Shown: one piece after another, positions 28,577 through 59,896 of the stretch
How the letters are laid out: each line of letters begins with the position of its first letter
How positions within the stretch are numbered: position 1 is the first letter of the stretch
From: Alistipes sp.
GTDB lineage: Bacteria; Bacteroidota; Bacteroidia; Bacteroidales; Rikenellaceae
Length of the DNA: 64,000 nt
Reading direction: 5' to 3'
Assembly: GCA_017555695.1 (NCBI GenBank)
Contig: JAFZFX010000045.1
Coordinates: forward strand, 1 to 64,000
Made by a program: the position numbers and the translations under genes
The notes under the pieces: model-generated
What the model saw: the letters and a program-made list of their open reading frames with translations, nothing else
Told to the model about the DNA's origin: nothing
Databases searched by the model: none

Positions 28577-29065
28577 ATTTAATAAAAATTCCTCCTCTAA
28601 GGCAAGAGGAGGTGGCACACTAAAAGTGTGACGGAGGAGTCTGCAAATTGGTAGAATATATCATTCAAAGAACAGACTCCCAAAATTAACACACTCCCTC
28701 CCCCTAAAGGGTACTCCCTCTAATTTAGAGGGAGAATTTTTTGTTAAACTGTCTGTCATTGCGAGGAGGAGTTTACTCCGACACGGCAATCTCATTTGGG
28801 AATATAGGAGATTACCACGAGCCTAACGGCTCTCGTAATGACAAATCCAATTTTGAATTCTGAATTTATCTGTGGTGCGAAGCCCATTCGCGGCAGGCAA
28901 GTTTTGGCTACCTTTTAACTGCCAAAAGGTGGAGGCATCAAAAAGATGCCATTTATTAAGTGAGAATCCTCTTCGCGCTAATGGATGGTGTCCCACCGCT
29001 GTGAGTGGGAGAATAGTTGTTGTATCTGTCATTACGAGGAGGGCAAAGCCCGACGCGGTAATCTC
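28577..29065 (+). repeat. composite intergenic repeat, copy A
   Basis: About 490 bases made of successive hairpins: 28591-28612 (CCTCCTCT stem), 28616-28630 (CACACT stem), 28714-28734 (CTCCCTCT stem), REP-like units at 28755-28793 and 28808-28842, 28911-28929 (CCTTTT stem), 28934-28950 (GGCATC stem), 28992-29009 (CCCAC stem) and a last REP-like unit at 29028-29065. A near-identical copy lies at 59379-59896 in reverse orientation. Compared with it, copy A has an extra stretch of about 17 bases (around 28676-28692) and a shorter middle. Short open frames in it are not genes. Confidence 0.85.
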
Positions 29066-29084
29066 ATTTGCTATGGTTATGTGG

Positions 29085-29120
29085 GAGATTGCCACATTCA
29101 CTTCGTTCATTCGCAATGAC
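29085..29120 (-). repeat. REP-like hairpin unit
   Basis: GAGATTGCCACATTC...TTCGCAATGAC: ATTGC/GCAAT arms flank a variable core. It is in the opposite orientation to the last unit of copy A. From here to 29317 I see only AT-rich sequence with a possible -7 box (TACCTTTA, 29248-29255) for the next gene. Confidence 0.6.
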
Positions 29121-29317
29121 AAATAAAACAATTTTGAATTTTGAATTCTTGCCATCCTCCCGCCTAAAAACCTATTCTACAAAACTATTATAACTCCAAC
29201 CGAAAAAATAAATCTCCTCGGCGGGGCGGAAATAATTATTTTATTACTACCTTTAGGGTTGAGAAAACCGTTTTACGCAAAAAAGCAAAATAATATACAA
29301 CCAAAAAACTAAAACTT

Positions 29318-30766
29318 ATGAGCGAGAAAATTTCACGCGGCGACTTCTTGAAGCGTTCAGGACTGGCCGCAGCAGGTGTGATGATGGGAGGATTGGCCTC
29401 TGCCTCTGAAGCTGCAAAACCGCAGGAGGACAAGAAGGCTCGTTTTGCCAAGTTGGGAAAGGTAAACATCGCTTGGGTCGGTATGGCAAATCGTGGCCGT
29501 GAAGTGATGCGCGAATTCGAGAAGACTGGCTTGGCTAACATCGTGGCTATGTGCGATGTGGACCCCAAATCAAAGGGCAGCCAGGAGTCTATCGCGGCTC
29601 ACCCCGATGCGAAGGTCTACACCGACTTCCGCAAGATGTTCGACGAGATGGGCAACAAGTTCGAGGCTGTCGTTGTCGAGACACCCGACTTCTCGCACTT
29701 CCCCTGCGTAATGCTGGCTCTGAACCAGGGCAAGCATGTATATGTCGAGAAGCCTATGGGCCGCACATTCCACGAGTGTCAGTTGATGATTGATGCCGCA
29801 GCGCGCAACCCCCACCTCGTAACACAGGGCGGTAACCAGGGTCACTCTGAGGCCAACTACTTCCAGTTCAAGGCGTGGAAGGATGCTGGCATCATCAAGA
29901 ATGTAACGCATGTAGATGCACATATGAACAACTCTCGCCGCTGGCACGGCTACGATGTGAACATCGACCGCTACCCGCAGGCACAGCCCATTCCCGAGGG
30001 TATGGATTGGGATTTGTGGCACACCACACAGCAGTTCCACGAGTTCAACGAGAAGTACCACCCTGGCAACTGGCGTAGCTGGTACGACTTCGGTATGGGC
30101 GCATTGGGCGACTGGGGTGCTCACCTGATTGACACCATCCACGAGTTCCTCGACCTGGGTCTGCCCTACGAGGTGGAGCCTATCAAGCTCGACGGCTGGA
30201 ACACATACTTCTTCCCGATGTCATCGACTCTGCAGTTCAAGTTCCCGCGCCGCGGTGATATGCCTGCAATGACCATCAACTGGTGGGACGGCATTGGCAA
30301 CTATCCTCCCGTGCCCGACGGCTACGGCGAGTCGAAGATGGGTAGCGATGTGCCGACAATCGGTGGCAAGCCCGCCGCAGCATCGGCCGTTAAGCTCAAT
30401 CCCGGTACTATTATGTACTCTGACGAGTTGATTTTCAAGCGTGGCTCACACGGCGCTATGACGCAGATCATCCCCGCAGCAAAGGCTAAGGAGATGGCCA
30501 GCAAGTTGCCCGAAGTCCCCAAGAGCCCATCGAACCACTACGAGAACTTCCTCTTGGCTTGTATGGGCGAGGAGAAGTCGCGCTCACCGTTCGAGAAGTT
30601 CGGCCCGCTGTGTCAGGTATTCTGCCTCGGCGTTATGGCTCAGCGCCTGAACAAGAAGATTGTCTTCGACCGCGAGAAGAAGATTGTTGTGAACGACCCC
30701 TTCGCAAATGCTATGCTCGTAGGCACACCGCCTCGCAAGGGTTGGGAGGAGTTTTATAAGATGTAA
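29318..30766 (+). CDS. Gfo/Idh/MocA family NAD(P)-dependent oxidoreductase, exported
   Basis: A 482-residue oxidoreductase. The Rossmann domain runs about 47-165 (KVNIAWVGMANRGREV; the EKP motif in YVEKPMGRTF carries the usual catalytic lysine). The C-terminal substrate domain includes DWGAHLIDTIHEFL with a conserved histidine. The leader SRGDFLKRSGLAAAGVMMGG has the shape of a Tat signal but only one of the two arginines. Related proteins in gut bacteria act on sugars or as NAD-dependent glycosidases (GH109); I see no decisive GH109 motif. It stands alone after the repeat region. Its substrate is unknown. Confidence 0.88.
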   Translation: MSEKISRGDFLKRSGLAAAGVMMGGLASASEAAKPQEDKKARFAKLGKVNIAWVGMANRGREVMREFEKTGLANIVAMCDVDPKSKGSQESIAAHPDAKVYTDFRKMFDEMGNKFEAVVVETPDFSHFPCVMLALNQGKHVYVEKPMGRTFHECQLMIDAAARNPHLVTQGGNQGHSEANYFQFKAWKDAGIIKNVTHVDAHMNNSRRWHGYDVNIDRYPQAQPIPEGMDWDLWHTTQQFHEFNEKYHPGNWRSWYDFGMGALGDWGAHLIDTIHEFLDLGLPYEVEPIKLDGWNTYFFPMSSTLQFKFPRRGDMPAMTINWWDGIGNYPPVPDGYGESKMGSDVPTIGGKPAAASAVKLNPGTIMYSDELIFKRGSHGAMTQIIPAAKAKEMASKLPEVPKSPSNHYENFLLACMGEEKSRSPFEKFGPLCQVFCLGVMAQRLNKKIVFDREKKIVVNDPFANAMLVGTPPRKGWEEFYKM

Positions 30767-30803
30767 AACACAACATATATACCCAAAAGTATATTGTACA
30801 ATA

Positions 30804-30850
30804 GAGAGTGGGCTGTCTAACCTTTTGGTCGGACAGCCCACTCTTATTTT
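30804..30850. terminator. bidirectional terminator between convergent genes
   Basis: GAGAGTGGGCTGTC and GACAGCCCACTCT form a 13- to 14-bp stem. A T-rich tract follows on the plus strand and a weaker one on the minus strand. It serves the oxidoreductase and the minus-strand LTA-synthase-type gene. Confidence 0.75.
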
Positions 30851-30883
30851 CGCTCGGCGGCGGGAGCCCCCGCACCTACCCCT

Positions 30884-32860
30884 CTACTCCTCTGCATCCA
30901 TATCCTCGTCGTCAGCAGCGGGTGCATCGACCACATAATCCTTGCGCTCGATATGGCTGTAGTAGCTCTGAATCATAGCCTTCAGATTCTGCTCTATGTG
31001 GCTGACATCGACCTTGCCCACGAGGTTGTCGGTGTGGTTGATATCCTCAACAGCATAGACCGCCGTTACGGCCTTCTCGTCGAACTGAACGAGGTACTTA
31101 TCGGTAATAGCCTGGAAGAGGTTGTTGTCGTAGTTCACCGCCATAGGCTCACGACCAAACTCATTGAACACATCGCGACCAAAGGCGAAGTAGGGCGTTG
31201 TGTTGCCCATCAGACCCAACAGCATAGGCATAATGTCAATCTGCGAAGTGACCTGATGATGCTCGCCGAAGAGTGCGCTCTCGGGTGCATAGATAAAGCC
31301 GAAGACCTGATAGTCGGCGGGTGAGCGACGGAACTCCTCCGAGAACTTCTCGCTCGACACATGGTCGGCCACAAACACGAAGATGGTATTATTGAACCAC
31401 TCCTCGCCCTCGTAGCGGGCAAAGAAGTTGCGGAAGGCGTTATCGACATACTCCACACAGCGGTGGTTGGCCGTAAGTCCAGCCTTGAAGCGCTCCTCAT
31501 AGCGTTCGGGGATGACAAACGGATGGTGCGACGAGAGAGTGAAGAGCGTCGAGAAGAAGGGTTGCTGCTGCTGAGATAGCACCTCACCCATATAGCCGAT
31601 GAACTCCTCGTCCCAAATACCCCAATAGCCGTCGAAGTCGCCATTGCCGTGCAGCTTTTCGTAATCCTCGCGGCTATAGAGATTCTCGATACCTACCGAG
31701 CGGGCAAAGGCGCCGAAACCCATCGAGCCACTATCCGAGCCACAGAAGAACATCGTCTGGTAGCCCTTGTCACGCAACATCTTTGGCAGAGCCTGCGTCT
31801 CGGCCATAGCCTGCGGCATCAACACGAAGGGCGACTTGAACGAAGGTATAGAGCTCCACACGGCGGGCAGAGCCTGAATCGAGCGCTTGCCGTTGGAGTA
31901 CATATTGTAGAATGTATAGCTCTGACGCATCAGCGAGTCGAGGAATGGCGTGTAGCCCTTCTTCTCCTTATTTGCGTAGATGTCGGGGCGCAGCAGAGCC
32001 GAGTGCTCGGCCGAGAAACTCTCCAGAATAAACATCACCACATTGCGCGAGGCCAACTCATTGGTGGCGTTACGCTTGATGGGACGGTGTTCGGGGGTAT
32101 AGACTGCGGGCAATTCCTCCTCCGTGAAGTATCTCTCATAGTGAATCTTACCGCTGGAGCCTATTGTACGCAACACACAGAACGGGTTGCTGAGAATCAT
32201 CGTAGCACGCATATTGTCGGCCGTATAGAGCGTAGCGTTGGAGAGCGTTACGGGGCGTGTCATCTTGGTAAAACCGCCTCTGATGCCGCCTATGGCAAGT
32301 CCCACAGCCAGAAGCAGCACCACCGTTGAAGTAACATAATAGAGCGCTCCCTTGAATACCGTCTGCGGCTTCACGCGCCTACCATATCCAAACGCCAACA
32401 CTACCAACAGCACCACACCCAAAAGCGTCAGCAGCCAATTCTCGGCAACGAACTTCAGCACCAACTGCAGCGAGTTGTCGTTATCGGCAAAGAATATCTC
32501 GTCGGCAGAGAATCGCTTTTGTGTATAACGGAAGTAGATGGCATCGGCCACATTGAAGCCTACGACCAACACTCCATTTACCACCACATAGTACCAATAC
32601 ATCACACTCTGCCACCATCCTCTCTCGCGCAGATGCAACGGCACGAGCGACAGCAGCACAAAGATGGCGTTGGCGTAGAGCAGCGACACGGTGTCGAACT
32701 GCAGTGCGCCCTTGAGCATTGCCCCAATCTCGGCGTCGGGCAACGGGCCGATGAGTGTAGAGTTATAGATATAGAATAGGACACGAAGCGACATCAGCAC
32801 CGCATAGAGCAGCAGCAATCGCCACACGAGCAGGGCCGTATGAGTCTTTAGAATCTTCAT
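30884..32860 (-). CDS. LTA synthase family (alkaline-phosphatase superfamily) membrane enzyme
   Basis: A 658-residue protein with five N-terminal membrane helices (about residues 8-190) and a large extracytoplasmic sulfatase-fold domain (about 265-560). Metal and catalytic motifs are visible: NVVMFILESFSAEH, SNGKRSIQALPAVWSSIP with a Ser at the nucleophile position, FFCGSDSGSMGF, and FVADHVS with metal-binding Asp-His. Gram-negative members transfer phosphoglycerol or phosphoethanolamine to glycans or lipids rather than make lipoteichoic acid; the exact product here is unknown. It follows rlmH by 3 bases and ends in an acidic tail (ADDEDMDAEE). Confidence 0.88.
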   Translation of the reverse strand: MKILKTHTALLVWRLLLLYAVLMSLRVLFYIYNSTLIGPLPDAEIGAMLKGALQFDTVSLLYANAIFVLLSLVPLHLRERGWWQSVMYWYYVVVNGVLVVGFNVADAIYFRYTQKRFSADEIFFADNDNSLQLVLKFVAENWLLTLLGVVLLVVLAFGYGRRVKPQTVFKGALYYVTSTVVLLLAVGLAIGGIRGGFTKMTRPVTLSNATLYTADNMRATMILSNPFCVLRTIGSSGKIHYERYFTEEELPAVYTPEHRPIKRNATNELASRNVVMFILESFSAEHSALLRPDIYANKEKKGYTPFLDSLMRQSYTFYNMYSNGKRSIQALPAVWSSIPSFKSPFVLMPQAMAETQALPKMLRDKGYQTMFFCGSDSGSMGFGAFARSVGIENLYSREDYEKLHGNGDFDGYWGIWDEEFIGYMGEVLSQQQQPFFSTLFTLSSHHPFVIPERYEERFKAGLTANHRCVEYVDNAFRNFFARYEGEEWFNNTIFVFVADHVSSEKFSEEFRRSPADYQVFGFIYAPESALFGEHHQVTSQIDIMPMLLGLMGNTTPYFAFGRDVFNEFGREPMAVNYDNNLFQAITDKYLVQFDEKAVTAVYAVEDINHTDNLVGKVDVSHIEQNLKAMIQSYYSHIERKDYVVDAPAADDEDMDAEE

Positions 32861-32863
32861 CGA

Positions 32864-33337
32864 TTATTCGTGATGATAAGGTTCGTTATTCAGAATCGTG
32901 AATGCACGATAGAGTTGTTCGGCGAAGATGGCACGCACAATCTGGTGCGAGAAGGTCATCTTCGAGAGCGAAATCTTCTGGTTCGAGCGTGCATATACCT
33001 CCTCCGAGAAGCCATAAGGACCGCCAATGACAAGCACCAATCGCTTCACACCGCTGAGCATACGCTTCTGCAACCACTGGGCATACTCCATCGATGTGTA
33101 CTGCGAGCCGTGCTCATCCATCAGCACCAGGTAGTCGCCATCGCTCAAACATTTGAGGATAGCCTCACCCTCCAGCTGCTTCTGGCGCGAGGGGGCCATA
33201 TTGCGCGTGTTGCGGACATCGGCAAGCGTAGTGATAGCGAACTTGCAGTAGCGGTTCACTCGCTTGGAGTACATCTCAACCAGCGCCTCAACCTCGCGGG
33301 AGTCGGTCTTGCCGACAACAATCAATTCGATATTCAT
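32864..33337 (-). CDS. rlmH: 23S rRNA (pseudouridine1915-N3)-methyltransferase
   Basis: A 157-residue SPOUT-class methyltransferase that methylates pseudouridine 1915 in helix 69 of 23S rRNA, on assembled ribosomes, using SAM. The knot region is clear: LVLVIGGPYGFSEEVYAR and the C-terminus KMTFSHQIVRAIFAEQLYRA. I start at MNIELIVVGK (33337), which gives the usual length; the open frame extends 12 residues upstream into the preceding gene. It lies 4 bases after the GH2-like gene and 3 before the LTA-synthase-type gene, so all three are one transcript from the promoter at 34.7 kb. Confidence 0.96.
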   Translation of the reverse strand: MNIELIVVGKTDSREVEALVEMYSKRVNRYCKFAITTLADVRNTRNMAPSRQKQLEGEAILKCLSDGDYLVLMDEHGSQYTSMEYAQWLQKRMLSGVKRLVLVIGGPYGFSEEVYARSNQKISLSKMTFSHQIVRAIFAEQLYRAFTILNNEPYHHE

Positions 33338-33341
33338 CTCG

Positions 33342-34649
33342 CTACAAATCGGTGTTCCACTCACCCTCGGCACCCTCGTAGAATACGGGGCGACGCTTTT
33401 CGACTGACTTTATCCACTCGTAGACTTTATACATATTGTAGCCATTACCCGAGTTCTCGCCCGCCAGACGGTAGGCGATGATGCACGAGTGGTTGCGCGA
33501 ACGGAAGTAGGCCGACTTAACGCGAGTCATATACTCCTCGCAGAGTGCGGGGTCGTTGGCTGGCGTACCACCCACCGAGCGGATGTTATAGTTAGTGGGC
33601 GAGTTGATGTTTATACGCTCGATGACAAACATACCCGCCTTGTCGCACATATCGTAGAACCACTTGGGCTGGGGATAGTCGGGGCAGAGTGTGTTGTAAC
33701 CACGCAGTTTCAACTGCTCGATAGCAACGAATGTCTGGTGACGGTCGCCAACAGCGTTAAAGTGCTCCTTCTTCTGGATGTGCAGCACATTATCGAAGCG
33801 GAAATACTTTTTGTCACGATATACCGTCTTGCCGAAGCCTATCTTCAACGGAATATACTCCCACAACATACCGTTGCGCTTGATGTAGAGCATCACATCG
33901 TAGAGCGGACGCTGACCATCGCCCCACTTGAAATTGTAGGCGTGGTAGATATCGGGGTTGAAGTGCAGAGTATCAATCGAGCGACCCTCAACCTCCAACT
34001 CATTCACGCTATACTCCTTGAGCTTGCCCTTGGGGTCGTAGATGTCGAAGCCCACCTGGATGGTCTCCTTGAAGTTGAAGTCGTTGGCAACGATGATATC
34101 CATCTTCAGCTTGGCATACTGGCGTGTGGTGTCGGGCTCGAGGATAATCTCGAAGTCGCGCACCGACAAACGGCGCTGTGCGAAGAAGTAGCTATTCTCG
34201 AACTGGGGGAATTCGGGCTGCACGATATTCTCCTGCAACTGAGGCGTACGACTCTGGCGCACACCCACCATAACCTCGTTCACACCCTGACGAAGGTAGG
34301 GCGAGAGCATAAAGTCGGCGGGAGTGATGGGGTCATCGACCTCGGCTACGGGCTCGTTGTTGATGAAGAGCGTATAGGCCATACCCACATTCTCCAGGTG
34401 GAAGAAGAGGTTATAGTCGTTCATCGTAGCGTCGATGGTCACCTTCTGGACATAGCGTGCCTCGCCACCTGCAATCGACACGGGCTGCGGCTTGAAATCG
34501 ACATAGCGTGCTGTCTCGCTGCGGTTGTCGGCCGCGGCATCCTCGCGCTTGTCGTAGGTCACAAACTCCGAGCGGAAGACACGCGGAGACTGCGCAAATG
34601 TGGTTATAATACTCAGTAGGGCTGCGCCCAGCAAGATGATTCTCTTCAT
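33342..34649 (-). CDS. truncated glycoside hydrolase family 2-like protein, probable pseudoenzyme
   Basis: A 435-residue secreted protein (signal ends ITTFAQ). Residues about 60-160 look like a GH2 sugar-binding domain, 165-285 like the Ig-like domain, and 290-430 like the first part of the TIM barrel (HFNAVGDRHQTFVAIEQLKL, YPQPKWFYDMCDKAGMFVIE). The acid/base motif GNEAG of the family appears as AGENSG, so Glu is kept but Asn is lost. The chain stops just after RPVFYEG, before the nucleophile segment (IQCEYAH in the complete enzyme at 41.4 kb). Hydrolysis is therefore unlikely. The end is clean, with rlmH only 4 bases on, so this is not a fresh frameshift. Confidence 0.75.
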   Translation of the reverse strand: MKRIILLGAALLSIITTFAQSPRVFRSEFVTYDKREDAAADNRSETARYVDFKPQPVSIAGGEARYVQKVTIDATMNDYNLFFHLENVGMAYTLFINNEPVAEVDDPITPADFMLSPYLRQGVNEVMVGVRQSRTPQLQENIVQPEFPQFENSYFFAQRRLSVRDFEIILEPDTTRQYAKLKMDIIVANDFNFKETIQVGFDIYDPKGKLKEYSVNELEVEGRSIDTLHFNPDIYHAYNFKWGDGQRPLYDVMLYIKRNGMLWEYIPLKIGFGKTVYRDKKYFRFDNVLHIQKKEHFNAVGDRHQTFVAIEQLKLRGYNTLCPDYPQPKWFYDMCDKAGMFVIERININSPTNYNIRSVGGTPANDPALCEEYMTRVKSAYFRSRNHSCIIAYRLAGENSGNGYNMYKVYEWIKSVEKRRPVFYEGAEGEWNTDL

Positions 34650-34694
34650 ATTAAACGGTGAATATTAATTCTATTTTTGGTCCTTTGACAATTT

Positions 34695-34711
34695 GTGGTA
34701 CTATGTACCAC
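34695..34711. promoter_or_regulatory. 17-bp palindrome over the GH2-like/rlmH transcription start
   Basis: GTGGTAC-TAT-GTACCAC is a perfect palindrome 4 bases downstream of the minus-strand -7 box, covering the expected start point. This is a classic repressor position. It lies 19 bases from the -33 of the divergent asnS promoter, which it might also affect. Confidence 0.5.
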
Positions 34712-34714
34712 TTG

Positions 34715-34745
34715 CAAAGGTACTTTTTTTTTGACAAATATCAAA
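34715..34745 (-). promoter_or_regulatory. promoter of the GH2-like/rlmH/LTA-synthase operon
   Basis: Minus-strand TTTG (34742-34745), 19 bases, TACCTTTG (34715-34722): an exact consensus. It overlaps the divergent asnS promoter, so the two may compete for polymerase. Confidence 0.75.
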
Positions 34746-34761
34746 TAATTATCTACCTTTG
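34730..34761 (+). promoter_or_regulatory. promoter of asnS
   Basis: TTTG (34730-34733), 20 bases, TACCTTTG (34754-34761): an exact consensus, about 70 bases before the start codon. Confidence 0.8.
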
Positions 34762-34830
34762 TGGATTGATAGCCACAATGTGGCTCAACATAACCCACGA
34801 AGATATAAACTAAAAAATAGAGCAAAAATT

Positions 34831-36219
34831 ATGAAGACACTGAGAATTGCAGAGATTCTGAAATCGGGTGCCGTTGGTAGCGACATCACCGTTAAGGGTT
34901 GGGTACGCACCAAGCGAGGCAACAAAAATGTAGCATTCATCGCACTGAACGATGGCTCGTGCGTGTCAAACATACAGATTGTAGTTGATTTGGCTAATGC
35001 CGACGAGGATACACTCAAGGCCGTAACTACTGGTGCTTGTATCCGCGTGGATGGCCAGTTGGTGGAGTCACCCGCATCGGGTCAGGGCGTAGAGGTTCAG
35101 GCTAAGTCAATCGAGATTTATGGCACTGCCGACCCCGAGACATACCCCTTGCAGAAGAAGGGTCACTCGTTGGAGTTCTTGCGCGATATCGCATACCTGC
35201 GCCCCCGTACCAACACATTCGGCGCCGTATTGCGTATCCGTCACGCTATGGCCTATGCCATCCACAAGTACTTCAATGACAACGGTTTCTACTACCTGCA
35301 CACTCCCCTTATCACAGGTTCTGACTGTGAGGGTGCTGGTGCAATGTTCAATGTCACTACTCTCGACATCGCCAACCCGCCCCGCACTGAGGAGGGTAAG
35401 GTAGATTACTCACAGGACTTCTTCGGCAAGCCCTGTAACCTCACCGTATCGGGTCAGTTGGAGGGTGAGCTGGGAGCATTGTCACTCGGCCGCATCTACA
35501 CATTCGGTCCTACATTCCGCGCCGAGAACTCTAACACTCCGCGTCACTTGGCCGAGTTCTGGATGATTGAGCCCGAGATGGCCTTCTACGAGTTGGAGGA
35601 CAATATGGAGTTGGCTGAGGACTTCCTCAAGTACCTCATCCGCTACGCATTGGAGAACTGCCGCGAGGATCTCGAGTTTATGAACAAAATGTGGGACAAG
35701 GAGCTTATCGAGCGTCTGGAGTTCGTCTTGAACAACGACTTCATCCGCTTGGACTACACCGAGGGTATCAACATCCTGAAGGCTTCGGGCCGCAAGTTTG
35801 AGTTCCCCTGCGAGTGGGGTTGCGACCTGCAGTCAGAGCACGAGCGCTACCTGGTTGAGGAGCACTTCAAGCGTCCCGTTATCCTTATCAACTATCCCAA
35901 GGAGATCAAGGCATTCTATATGAAGCAGAACGAGGACGGCAAGACTGTCCGCGCTATGGATGTACTCTTCCCAAAAATCGGCGAGATTATCGGCGGTTCG
36001 GAGCGTGAGGCCGACTATGGCAAACTTTCTGCAAGAGTGAAGGAACTCGGAATGAACGAGGCCGACATCTGGTGGTATCTCGATACTCGCCGTTGGGGCT
36101 CAGCTCCTCACTCAGGCTTCGGCTTGGGCTTCGAGCGTCTGCTCCTCTTCGTTACGGGTATGGGCAACATCCGCGATGTAATCCCCTTCCCCCGTACACC
36201 GAACAACGCAGAGTTCTAA
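34831..36219 (+). CDS. asnS: asparaginyl-tRNA synthetase
   Basis: A 462-residue class IIb synthetase that charges tRNA-Asn. The N-terminal OB-fold anticodon-binding domain covers about 15-110 ([19 protein letters not shown]). Class II motif 2 is visible at [20 protein letters not shown] and motif 3 at [16 protein letters not shown]. It ends [15 protein letters not shown], as in other AsnRS. I start at [10 protein letters not shown] (34831), since upstream codons of the open frame lie over the promoter. It is divergent from the GH2-like operon and is followed after 22 bases by an SGNH hydrolase gene likely on the same transcript. Confidence 0.97.
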
Positions 36220-36241
36220 ACAACATTGACACACGAATACT

Positions 36242-37036
36242 ATGAAGAGACTTGCTTTATGTCTTCTACTCATCTGCTTTGCTGGCTTGACGGCAACCTA
36301 CGCTAAAAAGTCGGAGGCGAAGCAGACCACTTATAACATAATTTACATCGGTAACAGCATCACCGCAGGTGCGCTGCACGCCGATGCAAAGAGTACTGCG
36401 CCCCCTATCCCTGCAACTGCCGCCGTGGCAAAGAAGATTGAGGGCAAGGGCGTGGAGGTTGCTGGCTTCAGCAACTGCGGCCGCTCGGGCGCCACTACGG
36501 TGGACTTCCTGCCCGAGAGGAATCGCGATTTCAAGCGAGTGGAGAAGGCCATCGAGGGTTACAAGGCCGCAGAGAAGGAGGGTACAAAGTATGTATTCTC
36601 GATTATGCTCGGCACCAACGACTCGGCTTCGCAGGGCCCCACAGGTTCGCCCGTGAGCAACGAAGACTACAAGAAGAATCTTCTCACAATCATATCTCGC
36701 CTGCGCGAGATGTGCCCCGATGCGATATTCGTACTGCAGCGTCCTATATGGTACAGCCCCAACACCTACAACGGCGCACGCTACCTGGTGGCGGGACTGA
36801 ACCGTATGACCGACTACATCACCGTGTTGGTAGAGTTGGCCAACGAGAATGGCGACATCTACCTGGGCGACTGCGATAGTTACGACCTATTCAAACACGA
36901 ATATAAGAAGTTGATGTTTGCCGAGGATGGCAAGGCCGGCACATTCTATCTGCACCCCACCGAGGAGGGCGCGGTAGAGCTGGCAAAGAACTGGGCCAAG
37001 GCGATTGTTGCAGCGATGAAGGCTGCGCGCCGCTAA
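36242..37036 (+). CDS. secreted SGNH/GDSL hydrolase
   Basis: A 264-residue protein with a signal peptide (cut near TATYA). All four SGNH blocks are present: Ser39 in YIGNSITAG, Gly in NCGRSGATT (about residue 82), Asn in MLGTNDS (about 124) and Asp/His in FYLHPTEEGA (about 240). It is expected to be an esterase or lipase acting in the periplasm or outside, perhaps a carbohydrate acetylesterase like those of gut Bacteroidales, but the substrate is unknown. It follows asnS by 22 bases, an odd pairing with no clear functional link. A second, unrelated SGNH protein is at 48.6 kb. Confidence 0.88.
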   Translation: MKRLALCLLLICFAGLTATYAKKSEAKQTTYNIIYIGNSITAGALHADAKSTAPPIPATAAVAKKIEGKGVEVAGFSNCGRSGATTVDFLPERNRDFKRVEKAIEGYKAAEKEGTKYVFSIMLGTNDSASQGPTGSPVSNEDYKKNLLTIISRLREMCPDAIFVLQRPIWYSPNTYNGARYLVAGLNRMTDYITVLVELANENGDIYLGDCDSYDLFKHEYKKLMFAEDGKAGTFYLHPTEEGAVELAKNWAKAIVAAMKAARR

Positions 37037-37168
37037 AGGATAGGCCCCGTCACTTTTGACTGAAATGAAGGAACCTGTCGAAGTGAAACAGGCACTCAAA
37101 GGCGTGTCTGCCAAATAGTTGTGCAGACGAGCAAAACCCTTGAGTCCATAAAACAGTTTAGAAAAAAA

Positions 37169-38590
37169 ATGGCTATTTCACAGCGTCAGATTCAGAAACA
37201 ACAGCAAACCCTCTCTCCGCAACAGATTCAGATGATAAAGTTGCTGGAGTTGCCCACCATAATGCTCGAGCAGAGGGTGAAGCAGGAGATAGAGGAGAAC
37301 ATCGCTCTCGAGGAGGATGAGCGCCCTGCAGAGGAGGGCGAGATGGAGGAGAACATCTCGGTGGACGACTACCTGCGTGACGACGAGGGGTCGGGCTACA
37401 AGGCTCGCCTGAACAACTACTCGAAGGATGACAAGCAGCGCCCGATAAACATCAGCGAGGGCCGTTCACTGCAGGATTACCTCATCGAGCAGTTGGGTTA
37501 TCGCAACCTCTCGGAACGCGACCAACGCGTAGCCGAATTCATCATAGGCAGCATCGACGAAGATGGCTACCTGCGCCGCGACCTCGAGTCGGTAGGCGAC
37601 GATGTGGCCTTCACTTTGGGCATAGATATTTCGACCGATGAGTTGGAGCGTCTGCTCGGCATCATCCACCAGTTGGAGCCTGCTGGCATCGGCGCCCGCA
37701 CATTGCAGGAGTGCCTGCTGCTGCAGATGGCACAGCGACGAATGGACTCGGCGGCCAAGCGATTGGCTAACAAGATTATAACATCGCACTTCGACGAGTT
37801 CGTAAAGAAGCACTACGAGAAACTTATCTCGCGTCTGGGCGTGGACGAGGAGCTCTTCCGCGACGCCATCGACGAGATTAAGCGACTCTCGCCCAAGCCA
37901 GGCAACCTCTACTCCGAGGATGGCATCGACAACACGCCCTACATCATCCCCGACTTCAGGCTCGACTATGCCGATGGCAACTTCGACCTGACGCTCAACT
38001 CCTACAACATTCCCGAGGTTAAAATCAACCGCCGCTATGTGGATATGATTCGCAATATGGTGTCGGCTGATGGCTCTGTCGCCGAGAGCAACCGCGAGGC
38101 TGTGCAGTTCGTCAAGAGCAAGATAGACTCGGCGAAGTGGTTTATCTCGGCCATCAAGCAGCGTCACGACACGCTGATGCGCACGATGCAGGAGATACTC
38201 TCGTTCCAGAAGGAGTACTTCAAGGATGGCGACAAGAGCAAGTTGCGTCCGATGATTCTGAAGGATATAGCCGACCGCACGGGACTCGATGTATCGACCA
38301 TTTCGCGCGTGGTGAACAGCAAATATGTGCAGACACACTTCGGCATCATACTCCTCAAGTCGCTCTTTTCGGAGGCTATGCAGACCGAGAGCGGCGAGAT
38401 TGTGTCGAGCTACGAGATAAAGAACATACTCCAGAGCTGCATCGACGACGAGGACAAGCGTCACCCGCTCACCGACGAGGCTCTGATGGATATCCTCAAC
38501 TCGAAGGGTTACTGTATCGCACGCCGCACGGTGGCGAAGTACCGCGAGATGTTGAGCATACCCGTTGCCCGCCTCCGCAAACAGCTATAG
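37169..38590 (+). CDS. rpoN: RNA polymerase sigma-54 factor
   Basis: A 473-residue sigma-54. The N-terminal Q-rich activator region (ISQRQIQKQQQTLSPQQIQM) is followed by an acidic segment, the core-binding domain (about 105-290) and the DNA-binding part with a helix-turn-helix (about 355-375, IADRTGLDVSTISRVVNSK) and the RpoN box ARRTVAKYRE near residue 455. It directs transcription from -24/-12 promoters with bEBP activators; in Bacteroides it influences carbohydrate and nitrogen use. I start at MAISQRQIQK (37169). A possible leader hairpin (GTCTGC/GCAGAC, about 37099-37125) precedes it. A membrane protein gene follows 32 bases on. Confidence 0.95.
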   Translation: MAISQRQIQKQQQTLSPQQIQMIKLLELPTIMLEQRVKQEIEENIALEEDERPAEEGEMEENISVDDYLRDDEGSGYKARLNNYSKDDKQRPINISEGRSLQDYLIEQLGYRNLSERDQRVAEFIIGSIDEDGYLRRDLESVGDDVAFTLGIDISTDELERLLGIIHQLEPAGIGARTLQECLLLQMAQRRMDSAAKRLANKIITSHFDEFVKKHYEKLISRLGVDEELFRDAIDEIKRLSPKPGNLYSEDGIDNTPYIIPDFRLDYADGNFDLTLNSYNIPEVKINRRYVDMIRNMVSADGSVAESNREAVQFVKSKIDSAKWFISAIKQRHDTLMRTMQEILSFQKEYFKDGDKSKLRPMILKDIADRTGLDVSTISRVVNSKYVQTHFGIILLKSLFSEAMQTESGEIVSSYEIKNILQSCIDDEDKRHPLTDEALMDILNSKGYCIARRTVAKYREMLSIPVARLRKQL

Positions 38591-38622
38591 CAGCTAACAA
38601 AATTTTGTGTAAAAGAGAACTA

Positions 38623-39231
38623 ATGAAAACGCTTTGCAAGATATTTTCCTATCTGCTGCACCCCTACCTGGTGCCGTTGTATATCGTGGCCACGATGCTG
38701 TTCGGAGCCACGAACTATACGATGTTGCCCGTGCGTTTGAAGTTGTATTTGATGTGGGTATTTACGCTATATGCGTTGATTCTACCCCTTATCACCACCG
38801 TTGCGGTGCGCCGCTTCGGTCATAAAAAACTGAAGGCGTGGTTTCACGGCCGCCGTCGTCGCATCCTGCCGCTGATGGTGGGTGCCATCTGCTACACGCT
38901 GTGCGCCATCACGCTGCTGAAAGCCCCCTCGTTGATGATTTTCCGCAAGTTAGCCATAGCGGGTATGTTGTGCGAATTGTTCTGCCTCTTCGTGCTGCCG
39001 ATGTGGCGCGTGAGCCTGCACCTGACGGCTATGGGTGCCGCCGTGGCACTGCTCATAGTGCTGAATGTTGCGGGTGCGCTGTCGCTCTTTTGGGCTATGC
39101 TCATAGCCATTATGTTGACAGGATTCCTCGCCTCGGCACGACTCTACATTGGCCGCAACAACGGTCTGCAGATACTTGTTGGATTTGCTGGTGGTTTTGC
39201 CATCGGTGTCATCTCATATCTCTACTTATAG
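38623..39231 (+). CDS. PAP2-like integral membrane protein
   Basis: A 202-residue protein with about six membrane helices and a basic loop (FGHKKLKAWFHGRRRR). The last helices carry SARLYIGRNNGLQI, which matches the third PAP2 phosphatase motif (SRxYxxxHxxxD) in spacing but has Asn in place of the catalytic His and Gln for Asp. RVSLHLTAMG stands near where PSGH would be. It is therefore probably a non-catalytic PAP2 relative or an enzyme with altered chemistry. It is likely co-transcribed with rpoN. I start at MKTLCKIF (38623), since the longer frame overlaps rpoN. Confidence 0.75.
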   Translation: MKTLCKIFSYLLHPYLVPLYIVATMLFGATNYTMLPVRLKLYLMWVFTLYALILPLITTVAVRRFGHKKLKAWFHGRRRRILPLMVGAICYTLCAITLLKAPSLMIFRKLAIAGMLCELFCLFVLPMWRVSLHLTAMGAAVALLIVLNVAGALSLFWAMLIAIMLTGFLASARLYIGRNNGLQILVGFAGGFAIGVISYLYL

Positions 39232-39315
39232 CCCCATCACATCTTTATTTGGTCGAAAGGCGAAATCTGGTCAAAGATTTTGCCGCGGTATTATGGTATT
39301 CTCGCAGAAAATCAT

Positions 39316-39323
39316 TACCTTTG
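39316..39323 (+). promoter_or_regulatory. -7 box before the ROK gene
   Basis: TACCTTTG lies 34 bases before the ROK start codon. No TTTG sits at the right distance upstream; the nearest is 33 bases away. Confidence 0.5.
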
Positions 39324-39357
39324 GTGAGAATTTAATACTTAAAAACTACAAATAACT

Positions 39358-40461
39358 ATGTATCGTAACGACCAAAGAACCGTCATCACACTCGATGCTG
39401 GTGGTACAAACTTCGTATTCGGAGCCATTCGCGCAAATAAGTTTATCGTAGACCCCATCACGCTGCCCGCAAATGCAGCCGACCTCGATGTATGCCTCGC
39501 TACCCTGGTTGAGGGTTTTGAGCGTGTCATCGCATTGCTCGACGAGAAGCCCGTGGCTATCAGCTTCGCATTCCCTGGCCCTGCTGACTATGCCAACGGT
39601 ATCGTGGGTGGTTTCTATATGCCCAACTTCCCCTCATTCCGCGACGGTGTAGCGTTGGGTCCCTTCCTCGAGGATAAGTTCGGTATTCCCGTATATATCA
39701 ACAACGACGCCGACCTCTACGCCTATGGTGAGGCTCTGGCTGGTGCCCTGCCCGAAATCAACGAGCGTCTGGAGGCTCTCGGTAGCGCCAAGCGCAGCAA
39801 GACTCTTTTGGGTTACACATTCGGTACAGGCTTCGGCTTCGGTTTCGTGAGTAACGGCGAGTTGCACACTGGCGACAACTCTTGCATCGAGACATTCTGC
39901 TTGCGCCACAAGTTTATGCCCGATGTAATGGTTGAGGATGGCGTAGCGGTAAGAGCCGTTAAGCGCGTATATGCCGAGGCTTCGGGTATCGACGACCCCA
40001 CTCTCGAGCCAAAGGATATCTTCGACATCGCCGAGGGCAACCGCGAGGGTGACCAGGAGGCTGCACGCAAGGCCTTCGCCACAATGGGTGAGGTTGCTGG
40101 TGACGCAATGGCCACAGCCGTTACACTCATCGACGGTGTTATCGTAATCGGTGGCGGTATCACAGCAGCCAAGAAGTATATTATGCCCGCCCTCTTGAAC
40201 GAGTTGCGCTCGAAGATGCGCTCGGTAGGTGGCGACGAGTTCGACCGCGTACAGATGAAGGTTTACGACCTGGACAACGAGGCCGAGTTCGAGGCTTACG
40301 CTCGTGGTGCATCACGCGACCTGAAGGTTTACGGCACCGACAAGGTGGTGACCTACGACCCGCAGAAGCGCATCGGCGTAATGACCACACACATCGGTGC
40401 AAGCACAGCCATCTCATTGGGTGCTTACGCTTACGCTCTGAACGAGGTGGACAAGAAGTAA
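39358..40461 (+). CDS. ROK family protein, divergent sugar kinase
   Basis: A 367-residue cytoplasmic protein of the ROK/ASKHA fold. The ATP phosphate loop is LDAGGTNFVFGA (12-23). The catalytic Asp lies in INNDADLYAYGEA (about 120) and the second phosphate motif is YTFGTGFGFGFVSNGEL. The usual ROK zinc site (GHxxx...CxCGxxGCxE) is not present; LHTGDNSCIETFC stands there instead. Most ROK proteins phosphorylate glucose, GlcNAc or ManNAc. Substrate cannot be read here. It heads a possible operon with an endonuclease/phosphatase-family enzyme and a beta-galactosidase, so phosphorylation of a released hexose is a reasonable guess. Codon use suggests good expression. Confidence 0.87.
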   Translation: MYRNDQRTVITLDAGGTNFVFGAIRANKFIVDPITLPANAADLDVCLATLVEGFERVIALLDEKPVAISFAFPGPADYANGIVGGFYMPNFPSFRDGVALGPFLEDKFGIPVYINNDADLYAYGEALAGALPEINERLEALGSAKRSKTLLGYTFGTGFGFGFVSNGELHTGDNSCIETFCLRHKFMPDVMVEDGVAVRAVKRVYAEASGIDDPTLEPKDIFDIAEGNREGDQEAARKAFATMGEVAGDAMATAVTLIDGVIVIGGGITAAKKYIMPALLNELRSKMRSVGGDEFDRVQMKVYDLDNEAEFEAYARGASRDLKVYGTDKVVTYDPQKRIGVMTTHIGASTAISLGAYAYALNEVDKK

Positions 40462-40501
40462 ACAATCAACGATAGGTCAATAAATTAAAAATCACACAAT
40501 A

Positions 40502-41425
40502 ATGAAAAAGATTCTTTTTGTATTTGCTTTTGCGGTGCTCTCTCTGTCAGTTGCAGCGCAGGAGTTTGTTGTGGGATCATACAACATCCGCAACAGCAAC
40601 AGCGGCGATGCCCGCAACGGTAATGGCTGGGACCTTCGCTGCCCCGTCATTTGTGACCAGGTAGAGTGGAACGACTTTGACATCTTCGGCGCACAGGAGG
40701 TTAAGCACAACCAGCTCGTCGATATGCTCAAGGGATTGCCCGGCTACGACTACGAGGGCGTAGGTCGTGACGACGGCAAGCAGGAGGGTGAGTACTCGCC
40801 TATCTTCTACAAGAAGTCACGCTTCAAGAAGTTGGACGGTGGTACATTCTGGATTTCAGAGACTCCCGAGAAGGTGGGTGTTAAGGGCTGGGATGCTGCT
40901 CTGCCCCGTATCTGCTCGTATGTGAGATTGCAGGACAAGGTTACAAAGAAGAAGATTTGGTTCTTCAACCTGCATATGGACCACATCGGCGTTGAGGCTC
41001 GTCGCGAGGGTGCCAAGCTCGTAGCTCGCAAGATTCTGGAGATGTGCAAAGGTGAGGCTGCTATCGTAACTGGCGACTTCAATGTGGACCAGACAAACGA
41101 GGCTTACCGCACAATCATCAACACAGGCGTATTGAAGGACTCTTTCGAGAAGGCCGAGAAGCGTTATGCTACAACAGGTACATTCAACAGCTTCGACCCC
41201 AACCTCTTCACCGAGAGCCGTATCGACCACATCTTCGTTACAGACCATGTGATTGTACACAACTACGCAGTCCTGACCGACAGCTACTTTACTCCCGTCA
41301 AGGAGAGCGACAAGAAGGTGAAGGGCGCAGCTGCTCCCCAGGAGATTGACTTCGCACCCTACCAGAGACGCTGTCCTTCAGATCACTACCCCATCGCTGC
41401 GAAGATTACGCTGAAGAAGAAGTAA
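40502..41425 (+). CDS. secreted endonuclease/exonuclease/phosphatase family protein
   Basis: A 307-residue protein with signal peptide MKKILFVFAFAVLSLSVAAQ. The fold's metal and catalytic residues are all visible: Asn28 (SYNIRN), Glu66 (GAQEV), FNLHMDHIGVEARREG, GDFNVDQ (about 197-203), RIDHIFV and the C-terminal SDHYPI. Relatives include DNase I, sphingomyelinase and inositol phosphatases. With export signal and no DNA-binding extension, a phosphodiesterase acting on lipids or extracellular DNA is likely. It lies 40 bases after the ROK gene and 21 before the beta-galactosidase. Confidence 0.9.
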   Translation: MKKILFVFAFAVLSLSVAAQEFVVGSYNIRNSNSGDARNGNGWDLRCPVICDQVEWNDFDIFGAQEVKHNQLVDMLKGLPGYDYEGVGRDDGKQEGEYSPIFYKKSRFKKLDGGTFWISETPEKVGVKGWDAALPRICSYVRLQDKVTKKKIWFFNLHMDHIGVEARREGAKLVARKILEMCKGEAAIVTGDFNVDQTNEAYRTIINTGVLKDSFEKAEKRYATTGTFNSFDPNLFTESRIDHIFVTDHVIVHNYAVLTDSYFTPVKESDKKVKGAAAPQEIDFAPYQRRCPSDHYPIAAKITLKKK

Positions 41426-41428
41426 TAA

Positions 41429-44536
<3,108 letters not shown>

Positions 44537-44602
44537 TTGATGTCACTCTCTATAAGAGGTTTACATATAAATTGTAACCCGAAACGAGAATAAATTATAA
44601 GC

Positions 44603-44641
44603 AAGGGGTTGTCCAACACTATGGACAACCCCTTATTCTTG
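44603..44641 (+). terminator. terminator after beta-galactosidase
   Basis: AAGGGGTTGTCC and GGACAACCCCTT form a 12-bp stem with an 8-base loop, followed by ATTCTT. Confidence 0.75.
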
Positions 44642-44713
44642 GAAGTTGTATAACAAGAGCTATTTTTCTTTATATATAAGTACAATTAATTTAATAATAA
44701 GATAACATAACTT

Positions 44714-44746
44714 TTTGAGATAATAGCGAAATAAGACATACTTTTG
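44714..44746 (+). promoter_or_regulatory. promoter of the Na/phosphate transporter gene
   Basis: TTTG (44714-44717), 21 bases, TACTTTTG (44739-44746): an exact consensus, 38 bases before the start codon. Confidence 0.75.
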
Positions 44747-44784
44747 CCGAAACGAAACATATATTTAATTAATAAATAAACACT

Positions 44785-46500
44785 ATGTTTTTACAACTTC
44801 TAACACTTCTTGGTGCGCTCGGTATGTTCCTCTACGGAATGAATCTTATGAGTGCAGGCTTGCAGAAGACGGCGGGTGACCGTCTGCGCAAAATCCTCGA
44901 AGCGATGACCTCAAACTCTGCAAAGAGTGTTCTGACGGGTCTTACTATCACCACCGCCATTCAATCATCGAGCGCCACAACCGTTATGGTCGTAGGTTTC
45001 GTAAATGCCGGTTTGCTGGCACTTACTCAGGCTATCGGTGTTATTATGGGAGCCAACATCGGAACAACCGTTACCGCTTGGCTTATCTCATTCCTCGGCT
45101 TCAAGGCCGACATCTCAATTTTGGCCGTGCCCCTTATGGCTGTCGGCTTTATATTGAGCATCTCGAAGAGCGAGAAGCGTCGCAACATCAGCGAGTTTAT
45201 CATCGGTTTTTCACTGCTCTTCCTGGGTCTTTCGTTGATGAAGAACTCGGTGCCCGACCTGCGCCAGACTCCCGAGGTGTTATCGTTCATCCAGAATTGG
45301 ACAGAACTCGGATTTGGCTCGGTAGTTATATTTATGTTCGTAGGTACGATTCTTACGCTCGTACTCCAATCATCAAGTGCGACTATGGCGCTGACCCTCA
45401 TTATGATGAGTTTGGGTTGGATACCGTTCCATATGGCCGCTGCAATGGTTCTTGGTGAGAACATCGGTACAACCATCACCGCCAACATCGCCGCCTCAAT
45501 CGGAAACACGAACGCCAAGCGTGCCGCACTTGCGCATACGCTATTCAACCTCTTCGGAGTTATTTGGGCACTCGCCGTTTTCCAGCCATTCTGCACACTC
45601 ATCGGCCACATAATTGCTGCGATGGGACTTCCTAATCCCTCTGATTTAGTCTATTCATCTACCACAACGCCTACGGCAGATGAATCTACTGCTGCACTTT
45701 ATGGTTTGTCGATGTTCCACACGCTGTTCAACACATTCAACACCGTTATCTTGATATGGTTTGTTCCCCAGCTGTCAAACATCGTGACAAAGATTATCAA
45801 GAGCAAGCCCACACAGGAGAAGGAGGTTGTACACCTGAAATATATTTCGGCAGGTCACACAGCCACAGCCGAGTTGTCGATTGGTCAAGCCGAGAAGGAG
45901 GTAAAGCACTTCGCACAGATTTCGCGTAATGGTCTGGAGTATATCAAGTCGGCCATCAATGCCAAGGACGAGAAGGAGTTTGAGTTCTATCGCCAGAAGT
46001 TGGTTAAGTACGAGGAGATTGCCGACCGCATCGAGTATGAGATTGGTACCTTCTTGAACTCTATTCCTCAGGAGGAGATTTCAGAGCATACCCGTACCAA
46101 GGTTAATATTATGTTCAACATAATCAACGAATTGGAGAGCCTCGGCGACTCGGGTGAGGCCATCAGCCGCATCATCTCACGCCGCAATATGCACGAACAG
46201 ACATTTACGGCCGAGAACATCAGCAACATCAACTCTATCCTCGAGCTTGTGGACCGCGCCTATGGCATTATGATTGACAACATCGCTGGCTCGAACAGCA
46301 AGGAGTTGGGTCTTAAGTTGGCCGTTGATTGCGAGATTGAGATTAACCAGCTTCGCACACAGTTGCGCGAGTCAGAGATTAAGCTCATCGAGCAGAACAA
46401 GAGCAATTACAGCAGCAGCGTTTACTACATAGACATCGTTTCAGAGGTGGAGCGAATGGGAGATTTCCTGATCAACATCTCGCAGAGCGCTTTGCAGTAG
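44785..46500 (+). CDS. Na/Pi cotransporter family protein
   Basis: A 571-residue protein. Two inverted halves of a sodium-phosphate symporter each carry the QSSSATT motif (about residues 59-65 and 196-202), with GANIGTTVTAW and GENIGTTITAN as paired elements, over eight to nine membrane helices (to about 350). The C-terminal 200 residues are a PhoU-like helical bundle (EKEVKHFAQISRNGLEYI, RIEYEIGTFLNSI) that probably senses or regulates. It imports phosphate or exports it under stress, driven by sodium. It has its own promoter and terminator. Confidence 0.92.
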   Translation: MFLQLLTLLGALGMFLYGMNLMSAGLQKTAGDRLRKILEAMTSNSAKSVLTGLTITTAIQSSSATTVMVVGFVNAGLLALTQAIGVIMGANIGTTVTAWLISFLGFKADISILAVPLMAVGFILSISKSEKRRNISEFIIGFSLLFLGLSLMKNSVPDLRQTPEVLSFIQNWTELGFGSVVIFMFVGTILTLVLQSSSATMALTLIMMSLGWIPFHMAAAMVLGENIGTTITANIAASIGNTNAKRAALAHTLFNLFGVIWALAVFQPFCTLIGHIIAAMGLPNPSDLVYSSTTTPTADESTAALYGLSMFHTLFNTFNTVILIWFVPQLSNIVTKIIKSKPTQEKEVVHLKYISAGHTATAELSIGQAEKEVKHFAQISRNGLEYIKSAINAKDEKEFEFYRQKLVKYEEIADRIEYEIGTFLNSIPQEEISEHTRTKVNIMFNIINELESLGDSGEAISRIISRRNMHEQTFTAENISNINSILELVDRAYGIMIDNIAGSNSKELGLKLAVDCEIEINQLRTQLRESEIKLIEQNKSNYSSSVYYIDIVSEVERMGDFLINISQSALQ

Positions 46501-46522
46501 GCTAAGTGCAAAATCACTTCAC

Positions 46523-46558
46523 ACTACACTCCGATTGCATCGGGGTGTAGTTTTTTTG
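46523..46558 (+). terminator. terminator of the Na/Pi transporter gene
   Basis: CTACACTCCGAT-TGC-ATCGGGGTGTAG followed by seven T. The stem is 12 bp with one G-T pair. Confidence 0.85.
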
Positions 46559-46645
46559 TTTTACGACAGCCCCAAAACTCAATTATTTTGTGGTAGCACA
46601 CTGAAAAATAGTAAATAAATATTTTTTCTCAAAACAATTATTTTG

Positions 46646-46690
46646 TATCTTTGCGACGATTATGGCTCCCCGCAATGGGTCGGCGGAGGC
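46646..46690 (+). promoter_or_regulatory. -7 box and 5' hairpin of fba
   Basis: TATCTTTG (46646-46653) puts the start of the message near 46659. The 80-base leader carries a stem CTCC-CCG with CGG-C-GGAG (about 46665-46689), which may stabilise the transcript. No clear -33 TTTG is at 19-21 bases. Confidence 0.55.
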
Positions 46691-58122: not shown

Positions 58123-58145
58123 AACTTTTTAACACATTCACGACT

Positions 58146-58694: not shown

Positions 58695-58728
58695 CAGAAG
58701 GATAAAATTATAATATATAAAGACTACT

Positions 58729-59286
58729 ATGGATACTACAACTATTATCAATGGAGCAACCGACCGTATGAAGCGTACGGTGGACCACCTCGACGAGGAA
58801 CTGCTGAACATCCGTGCCGGTAAGGCATCTACAAACGCCCTGAACAGCGTATTTGTAGATTACTACGGTTCGCAGACTCCCGTATCGGGCGTAGCAAGCG
58901 TTACTGTACCCGATGCACGCACCATCCTCATCCAGCCGTGGGACAAGAATATGATTCGCCCCATCGAGAAGGCTATCATCGACTCTAACATCGGTCTTAC
59001 ACCTTCGAACAACGGCGAGACCATCCGTCTTACTATTCCCCCTCTCACAGAGGATCGTCGTAAGGAGTTGGTAAAGCAGGTTAAGGGCGTTGGCGAGACA
59101 GCTCGCATCAGCCTCCGCAATGCACGCCGCGACGCGGTAGAGGCTTTCAAGAAGGCTCAGAAGGAGGGTATGCCCGAGGACGAGGCCAAGGATGGCGAGA
59201 CAAGAGCACAGAAGCTCCTGGAGAAGTACTCAAAGGCGCTTGACGCTCTGATTGAGGCTAAGGAGAAGGAGATTATGACCGTATAA
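58729..59286 (+). CDS. frr: ribosome recycling factor
   Basis: A 185-residue protein that, with EF-G, splits the post-termination ribosome. Domain I helices (ATDRMKRTVDHLDEELLNIR, AGKASTNALNSVFVDYYGS) and the hinge with domain II (VSGVASVTVPDARTILIQPWD) match RRF, and the C-terminal long helix (AKDGETRAQKLLEKYSKALD) is complete. It follows the thioredoxin gene by 34 bases and ends at a terminator. Codon use indicates good expression. Confidence 0.97.
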   Translation: MDTTTIINGATDRMKRTVDHLDEELLNIRAGKASTNALNSVFVDYYGSQTPVSGVASVTVPDARTILIQPWDKNMIRPIEKAIIDSNIGLTPSNNGETIRLTIPPLTEDRRKELVKQVKGVGETARISLRNARRDAVEAFKKAQKEGMPEDEAKDGETRAQKLLEKYSKALDALIEAKEKEIMTV

Positions 59287-59307
59287 TCGGTTGAAATAAT
59301 TTACGCA

Positions 59308-59338
59308 AAGCGAGGTCTGCAGAGGCCTCGCTTTTTTG
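59308..59338 (+). terminator. terminator after frr
   Basis: GCGAGG and CCTCGC pair around a 10-base loop and are followed by six T. Confidence 0.75.
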
Positions 59339-59378
59339 TTTTATTACAAAGGAGTGGAGCAACTATGGCAATCTCCCA

Positions 59379-59896
59379 AGATTGCCGCGTCGGGTTACAC
59401 CCTCCTCATAATGACAGATACAACAACAATTCTCCCACTCACCGCGGTGGGACACCATCCATTAGCCGTAAGAGGATTCTCACTTAATAAAAGGCATCTT
59501 TTTGATGCCTCCACCTTTTGGCCCACAAAAGGTGGCGCCAAAATGGGCGCGGTGACAAGTTTTCGGGGTCGGTGCTTGCCGTCGGTAAAACTTGCCTGCC
59601 GCGGTTGGGCTTCGCACCACAGATAAATTCAGAATTCAGAATTGGATTTGTCATTACGAGAGCCGTTAGGCTCGTGGTAATCTCCTATATTCCCAAATGA
59701 GATTGCCGCGTCGGAGTAAACTCCTCCTCGCAATGACAGACAGTTTAACAAAAAATTCTCCCTCTATGTTAGAGGGAGTACCCTTTAGGGGGAGGGAGTG
59801 TGTTCTTGGAATGATATATTCTACCAATTTACAGACTCCTCCGTCACACTTTCAGTGTGCCACCTCCTCTAGCTTAGAGGAGGAATTTTTATTAAA
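59379..59896 (-). repeat. composite intergenic repeat, copy B (inverted)
   Basis: The reverse complement of this stretch follows copy A (28577-29065) hairpin by hairpin: REP-like unit 59379-59415, CCCAC stem, GGCATC stem, CCTTTT stem, REP-like units 59650-59684 and 59699-59736, CTCCCTCT stem, CACACT stem and CCTCCTCT stem. Copy B has about 47 extra bases in the middle (59530-59600) and lacks a 17-base stretch of copy A. Stems are the same while loops differ. Open frames in it are not genes. Confidence 0.85.

Follow-up and report, generated by a model that had tools for sequence, protein, structure and literature searches.

The 64,000-nt stretch analysed here (the window; Alistipes sp., contig JAFZFX010000045.1, positions 1 to 64,000) carries two composite repeats, A and B, in inverted orientation on either side of 30 kb of genes. 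A lies between an Omp28 family gene and a Gfo/Idh/MocA family gene (Gfo/Idh), and B between frr and rplQ. They are probably two copies of a dispersed mosaic family of hairpin repeats, of which A was inserted and B stands at an inversion breakpoint, and not the arms of a dedicated 30-kb switch. The composites are best read as a hitherto undescribed variant of the mosaic repeats formed by repetitive extragenic palindromes (REPs) and miniature inverted-repeat transposable elements (MITEs).

A and B form a genuine pair. The first-pass annotation of this DNA had described inverted repeats of about 0.5 kb bracketing 30 kb, and both arms are where it placed them. Aligned with the reverse complement of 59379-59897, the core of A (28577-29065) is identical in 442 of 470 paired columns (94.0%); a further 68 columns are gaps, and blastn in the genome search gives 82% identity for the match as a whole. 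The 17-base gap that it listed is present, and the central insertion in B, put at 47 bases, occupies 49 columns. The ungapped inverted blocks are of 218 nt (97%), 158 nt (89%), 80 nt (94%) and 25 nt (100%), the two longest exact runs are of 69 and 57 nt, and similarity by chance is excluded. Homology of the family reaches beyond the earlier limits, in A from about 28487 to 29150, and in B through an outer stretch with 40 of 56 letters identical to module V of A (E 5e-8). In sliding 60-nt windows the copy nearest to A is B over 28697-28906 and, with a lead of one letter, at 28577; over the rest of A, some other genomic copy is at least as near as B.

The draft genome to which the window belongs (2,177,604 bases in 53 contigs, 88.5% complete) has at least 99 matches to the 489 bases of A, counting A itself and overlapping pieces, and the idea of a unique repeat pair was rejected. 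The counts are lower bounds, as this search scored the best 40 of 75 candidates and that of the relatives at most 15 per genome. Most matches span only part of A, and their break points tend to coincide; A and B are therefore mosaics of modules, here called PQ, R, S, TU and V. In 381,689 bp of this genome (2.18 Mb), a portion picked mainly for its matches, there are 30 matches to PQ, 43 to R, 25 to TU and 26 to V, with modules in both orientations. They form 49 clusters, 45 of them mostly outside open reading frames (ORFs) and four overlapping ORFs by more than 30%, a count biased towards the intergenic outcome by the prior removal of ORFs that were shorter than 600 nt and more than 35% repeat. 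Seventeen clusters were scored as lying at a contig end, two of these being ends of an excerpt and not of a contig. The other 32 have genes on both sides, codirectional in 23, convergent in six and divergent in three, against 42, 12 and 17 of 71 background gaps, as scored by a simple ORF caller that made B itself codirectional through a spurious ORF at 60101-60445, its true neighbours being convergent. Two 41-kb contigs, C26 and C33, are dense with repeats (16 and 7 clusters), and 59 kb inside contig C28 have none.

Repeat matches were found in at least six of 41 genomes (this one, 24 of the same genus and 16 of the same order), this one included, all within the genus. Neither the plasmid nor the phage collection gave a match at E 1e-3, and an origin from either was rejected. 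The only known RNA family in the window at gathering scores is a tRNA, with two weak matches at B far below those scores, and A and B were rejected as members of such a family. Of the 106 contig ends, at least 15 fall inside one of these repeats or no further than about 120 bases away, where a generous rate would give 4.1 (P 1.5e-5); ends were judged from the listed matches and the contigs examined, and contigs without listed matches were counted as repeat-free. The repeats offer a reason for the fragmented assembly of this genome. Fragmentation of drafts tracks repeats in the Bacteroidia, and in Porphyromonas gingivalis repeats, two thirds of them insertion sequences (IS) or MITEs, mark the assembly gaps, according to the portion of PMC5771137 drawn on here.

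Module PQ is about 165 nt long and has terminal inverted repeats of about 16 nt, TAAAAATTCCTCCTCT and AGAGGGAGAATTTTTA in their common form. This is taken from an alignment of 18 rows, matches of less than 80% coverage having been excluded, which kept 19 of 30 PQ and 22 of 43 R. The longest ORF overlapping PQ of B is of 86 aa, and on this ORF length PQ is taken as non-coding. It falls within the size and structure of MITEs, which are of 70-300 nt, non-coding and bounded by terminal inverted repeats of 15-30 nt. Of the 18 copies, 13 have TTAA outside PQ at the 5' end, 14 have it at the 3' end and nine at both; a nineteenth copy is without one end, and no exact empty site was found among them.

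Module R consists of two REP-like hairpins with TGTC tags that point outwards and a CTC tail, the TGTC being invariant in all 22 aligned copies. Its outer stem of 5 bp, ATT.C / G.AAT, is paired in 98.2% of 220 cells and has one clearly variable pair, which is G-C, A-T or C-G; in a wider sample this position is paired in 60 of 62 half-units. Both sides have changed in 20 cells of the outer stems (5.8 in shuffles), and none of 500 shuffles was as high. The two halves are unlike in 20 of 22 copies, elements in either orientation included. The inner stems have been replaced wholesale and are still complementary: 15 of the 21 distinct R inserts (2.1% of shuffles) and seven of the nine PQ inserts (3.3% of shuffles) pair over at least 4 bp. 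As single-stranded DNA both composites fold much more strongly than shuffles (A, z -7.4 in 100 shuffles; B, z -8.1 in 20 shuffles).

The shoulder pattern of R was found in 24 of 296 Bacteroidota genomes, this one included, and in 18 of 140 genera, with a reversed control at 0 throughout. Among the titles listed by a literature search for the letters of the shoulder motif and related wording, none was on this element. It is conceivable, though unlikely, that a phylum-wide superfamily of framed hairpins (shoulders CATT.CGAG ... GG.AATCTC, with stems rewritten but self-complementary) spreads without a RAYT (REP-associated tyrosine transposase), fuses with unrelated MITE-like units into composites and, in Bacteroidales, tags the gene 3' ends at which inversions have broken the chromosome. 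Downstream of rplQ the two closest relatives, G014 and G071, have hairpin repeats of their own with a similar layout and other letters (by eye; in G014 at L051:13180-13956), for example CGTCATTCC ... GGAATCTC, which suggests that each lineage carries its own version. As to the CGTC tag of one known class of REPs (below), a divergent hairpin beside rplQ in G014 does start with CGTCATTCC (by eye).

Bacterial interspersed mosaic elements (BIMEs) are mosaics of paired palindromes between genes. The composites resemble them, and the GTAG REPs of the RAYT model (as outlined in PMC3733652), in being intergenic mosaics of paired palindromes, but differ from the GTAG REP/RAYT system in that no Y1 transposase was found in 61 genomes of the genus. 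Module R works in the manner of the CGTC-tagged REPs without belonging to them. The account of these in PMC3733652, in the sections used, places them also in Bacteroidetes and describes a stem that opens with a paired A-T after the GTC tag, the lack of a dedicated transposase (here for Y1 only) and frequent dimers, with heterodimers preferred in most families, much as the halves of R are mostly unlike. The same sections give a CGTC tag and a CCA tail, a stem of 8-9 bp with a loop of 4-5 nt, and rare clusters, whereas R has TGTC and CTC, a 5-bp outer stem with an interrupted, variable inner stem, and clusters that are common. PQ is similar to bacterial MITEs, among them BrickBuilt of P. gingivalis (as far as covered in PMC10969869 and PMC5771137), in size, terminal inverted repeats, intergenic location and a tendency to break assemblies; it differs in being fused with other hairpin families, and neither a target duplication nor a parent IS is proven for this MITE-like unit. 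The Neisseria intergenic mosaic elements (NIMEs) with dRS3, as presented in part of PMC9778887, are likewise intergenic mosaics with short inverted repeats and many copies, located at rearrangement borders, but they belong to another phylum and have other modules; the likeness is one of arrangement and location.

Repeat A has an empty counterpart in the closest relatives. G014 and G071 (frr 95-96%, rplQ 99% and Gfo/Idh 95-96% identical) have the Omp28 gene and Gfo/Idh adjacent and in the same order, with gaps of 263 and 227 bases against 894 here, and the repeat is in neither gap. The junction is thus colinear and repeat-free in both, and repeat A therefore entered a pre-existing junction in its own lineage. 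It stands downstream of a terminator-like hairpin (by eye) already present after Omp28. G049 shares with this genome the sulfatase block that comes after Gfo/Idh.

Repeat B is located exactly on a derived rearrangement breakpoint. Among 13 relatives whose frr side was examined, none has frr facing rplQ. In G014, frr faces a phosphoesterase gene directly; in G071, G001 and G062 a GDPD gene comes first, with the phosphoesterase turned in G001 and one extra ORF between in G062. Other genes come after GDPD in G015, the contig of G049 runs out, and G066 has a different arrangement. On the other side, rplQ faces the EF-G gene in G001, G049 and G062; G015 and G066 are arranged differently, and the contigs of G014 and G071 stop 0.7 and 1.4 kb beyond rplQ. 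In this genome EF-G (C28:239835-241997, plus strand; 93% identity with the G049 gene) and the phosphoesterase (C28:242133-243125, minus strand; 83-84% identity with G014 and G071), both assigned by Pfam family, face each other across a gap of 135 bases. The old pairs frr-phosphoesterase and rplQ-EF-G have become frr-rplQ and EF-G-phosphoesterase, the reciprocal mark of one inversion. It is a well-bounded inversion, with two reciprocal junctions and a mosaic repeat at one of them. The gap between EF-G and the phosphoesterase has two terminator-like hairpins (by eye) and no module.

Taken together, non-coding, hairpin-rich modules of REP/BIME-like and MITE-like kinds are scattered between genes, also alone or in other orders than in A and B. 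The family most likely spread as non-autonomous mobile DNA in which structure mattered more than sequence, and long copies may then have been homogenised patchwise by recombination. A was inserted into the existing Omp28-Gfo/Idh junction, and B occupies a frr-rplQ junction made by inversion, with EF-G/phosphoesterase on another contig as its reciprocal. The repeats therefore mark rearrangements at gene 3' ends and may at times have served as substrates for them. Should they prove to move and to rearrange chromosomes with no transposase of their own, the movement of transposase-less palindromic repeats would become testable in a gut lineage.

Several results weigh against this account. No transposase with matching ends was found in a search that covered the Y1 family. 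The Y1_Tnp domain has no match in this genome (88.5% complete) and is in 0 of 61 genomes of the genus, with 5 of 14 control genomes positive, and REPs driven by a RAYT were rejected on this count. Among other Bacteroidota with the R pattern 12 of 14 have Y1_Tnp, which says little without a background rate, and none of 14 Y1_Tnp loci (1.8-3.4 kb each) from 12 other Bacteroidota has R-type hairpins. Neither a target-site duplication nor an empty site exact to the nucleotide was seen, the intergenic DNA of G014 and G071 being too diverged. Two of the five pairing measures of R (pairs changed on both sides, and further pair types) are not above shuffles, and the copies are related to each other. 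The EF-G/phosphoesterase junction holds no copy, so that a repeat-driven inversion is unproven. The phosphoesterase has here also lost its second former neighbour, GH57, and at least one further rearrangement must therefore have taken place. In G011 and G056 frr is faced by the AhpC-DUF6029-Omp28 group, with DUF6029 confirmed by Pfam in G011; a flip of the 30-kb segment predicts two junctions, and this is one of them.

Such a flip, of 29.1-59.4 kb through RecA with a population holding both orders, is very unlikely. The annotation rightly saw in A and B long inverted repeats that could recombine, given their 94.0% identity and the exact run of 69 nt, and the closeness of B to A over 28697-28906 is what a gene-conversion tract would leave; a past flip by this pair is not supported. 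Junction A is repeat-free in G014 and G071, the reciprocal of B is on C28, and many other copies could pair equally well. Gene order around the repeats does differ between relatives, as the annotation expected, and includes the Omp28-frr junction, but in more distant species (frr 83% identical), whose Omp28 genes are only 27-32% identical and come in pairs, and G011 has no match to this repeat. The second predicted junction, the start of Gfo/Idh facing the end of rplQ, was not seen in the 11 relatives whose rplQ side was examined (two of them ending within 1.5 kb), and both orders with a repeat at both junctions were not found among the relatives. The frr-rplQ inversion may instead have come from recombination between repeat copies, a reading with some chance of being right although the balance is against it. 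One breakpoint coincides with B, G014 with the older frr order already has a hairpin repeat match about 235 bases downstream of rplQ, and NIMEs are reported, in the part of PMC9778887 cited, to be the elements most often tied to rearrangements in Neisseria. The reciprocal junction is repeat-free, and such recombination is therefore possible only if a copy there has since been lost; the frr 3' end, moreover, has another partner in G011, a genome without a match to the repeat.

A misjoin of the assembly at B, running through the repeat, is hardly probable. The many contig ends with copies, and the contig breaks and misassembly caused by repeats, largely IS and MITEs, in P. gingivalis (in the relevant portion of PMC5771137), would fit it, but the reciprocal junction is embedded in a 303-kb contig, in sequence free of these repeats, and frr and rplQ are thus both without their old partners, which tells against a chimera at B. 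It is also quite unlikely that the modules are kept for an action of their hairpins on RNA at gene ends, in termination or mRNA stability. The mostly intergenic clusters, the conserved pairing and the few divergent gaps (3/32 against 17/71) agree with such a role; the terminator-like hairpin already present upstream of A, the use of both orientations, the empty site in the sisters G014 and G071 and the shares of codirectional (23/32 against 42/71) and convergent (6/32 against 12/71) gaps speak against it. The preferred reading, two copies of a dispersed mosaic family, is the one followed in the table.

Table. Composite repeats A and B, their modules and the neighbouring genes, in window coordinates
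Feature	Position	Strand	Remarks
Composite repeat A, full extent	28487..29150	+	core 28577-29065; G014 and G071 lack it in their orthologous Omp28-Gfo/Idh gap
R module of A, outer copy	28487..28571	-	pair of REP-like hairpins
PQ module of A	28577..28745	+	MITE-like; terminal inverted repeats TAAAAATTCCTCCTCT / AGAGGGAGAATTTTTA (family form), often TTAA-flanked
R module of A	28752..28845	+	TGTCATTGCGAG ... CTCGTAATGACA
S and TU hairpin modules of A	28846..28951	+	S is CAATTTTGAATTCTGAATT; without the 49-column stretch present in B
V module of A	28952..29026	+	
R module of A, further copy, then S	29025..29123	+	
Composite repeat B	59332..59961	-	between convergent frr and rplQ; minus-strand order V-PQ-R-S-TU-V-R
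Outer V-like stretch of B	59906..59961	-	
PQ module of B	59747..59897	-	internal gap relative to A
R module of B	59647..59740	-	99% identical to R of A at 28752
V module of B	59417..59491	-	
Omp28 family gene	27167..28423	+	left neighbour of A; PF11551
Gfo/Idh/MocA family gene	29318..30766	+	right neighbour of A; PF01408
frr (ribosome recycling factor)	58729..59286	+	left neighbour of B; 3' end is a derived breakpoint
rplQ (L17)	60478..61047	-	right neighbour of B; 3' end is a derived breakpoint

The gene order of the region has changed in other ways as well. In G015 (C10) the block corresponding to 30884-46662 is inverted after frr and GDPD, and the order is therefore fluid. In G057 (L086, C5:190000-209999) rplQ faces a sigma-54 gene, assigned by Pfam, that is orthologous to the one at 37121-38590 of the window. 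The 3' ends of frr and rplQ have several different partners across the genus and therefore look like recurrent breakpoints.

A block of about 200 nt downstream of rplQ (60105-60340, minus strand) is conserved in this genome, G015, G001 and G062. It folds into one long rod with 70 consensus pairs, six of them changed on both sides among the four sequences, and has no Rfam match above threshold. Upstream of it is a TAnnTTTG-like stretch that we take to be a promoter, and the block is perhaps an unnamed, 6S-like RNA.

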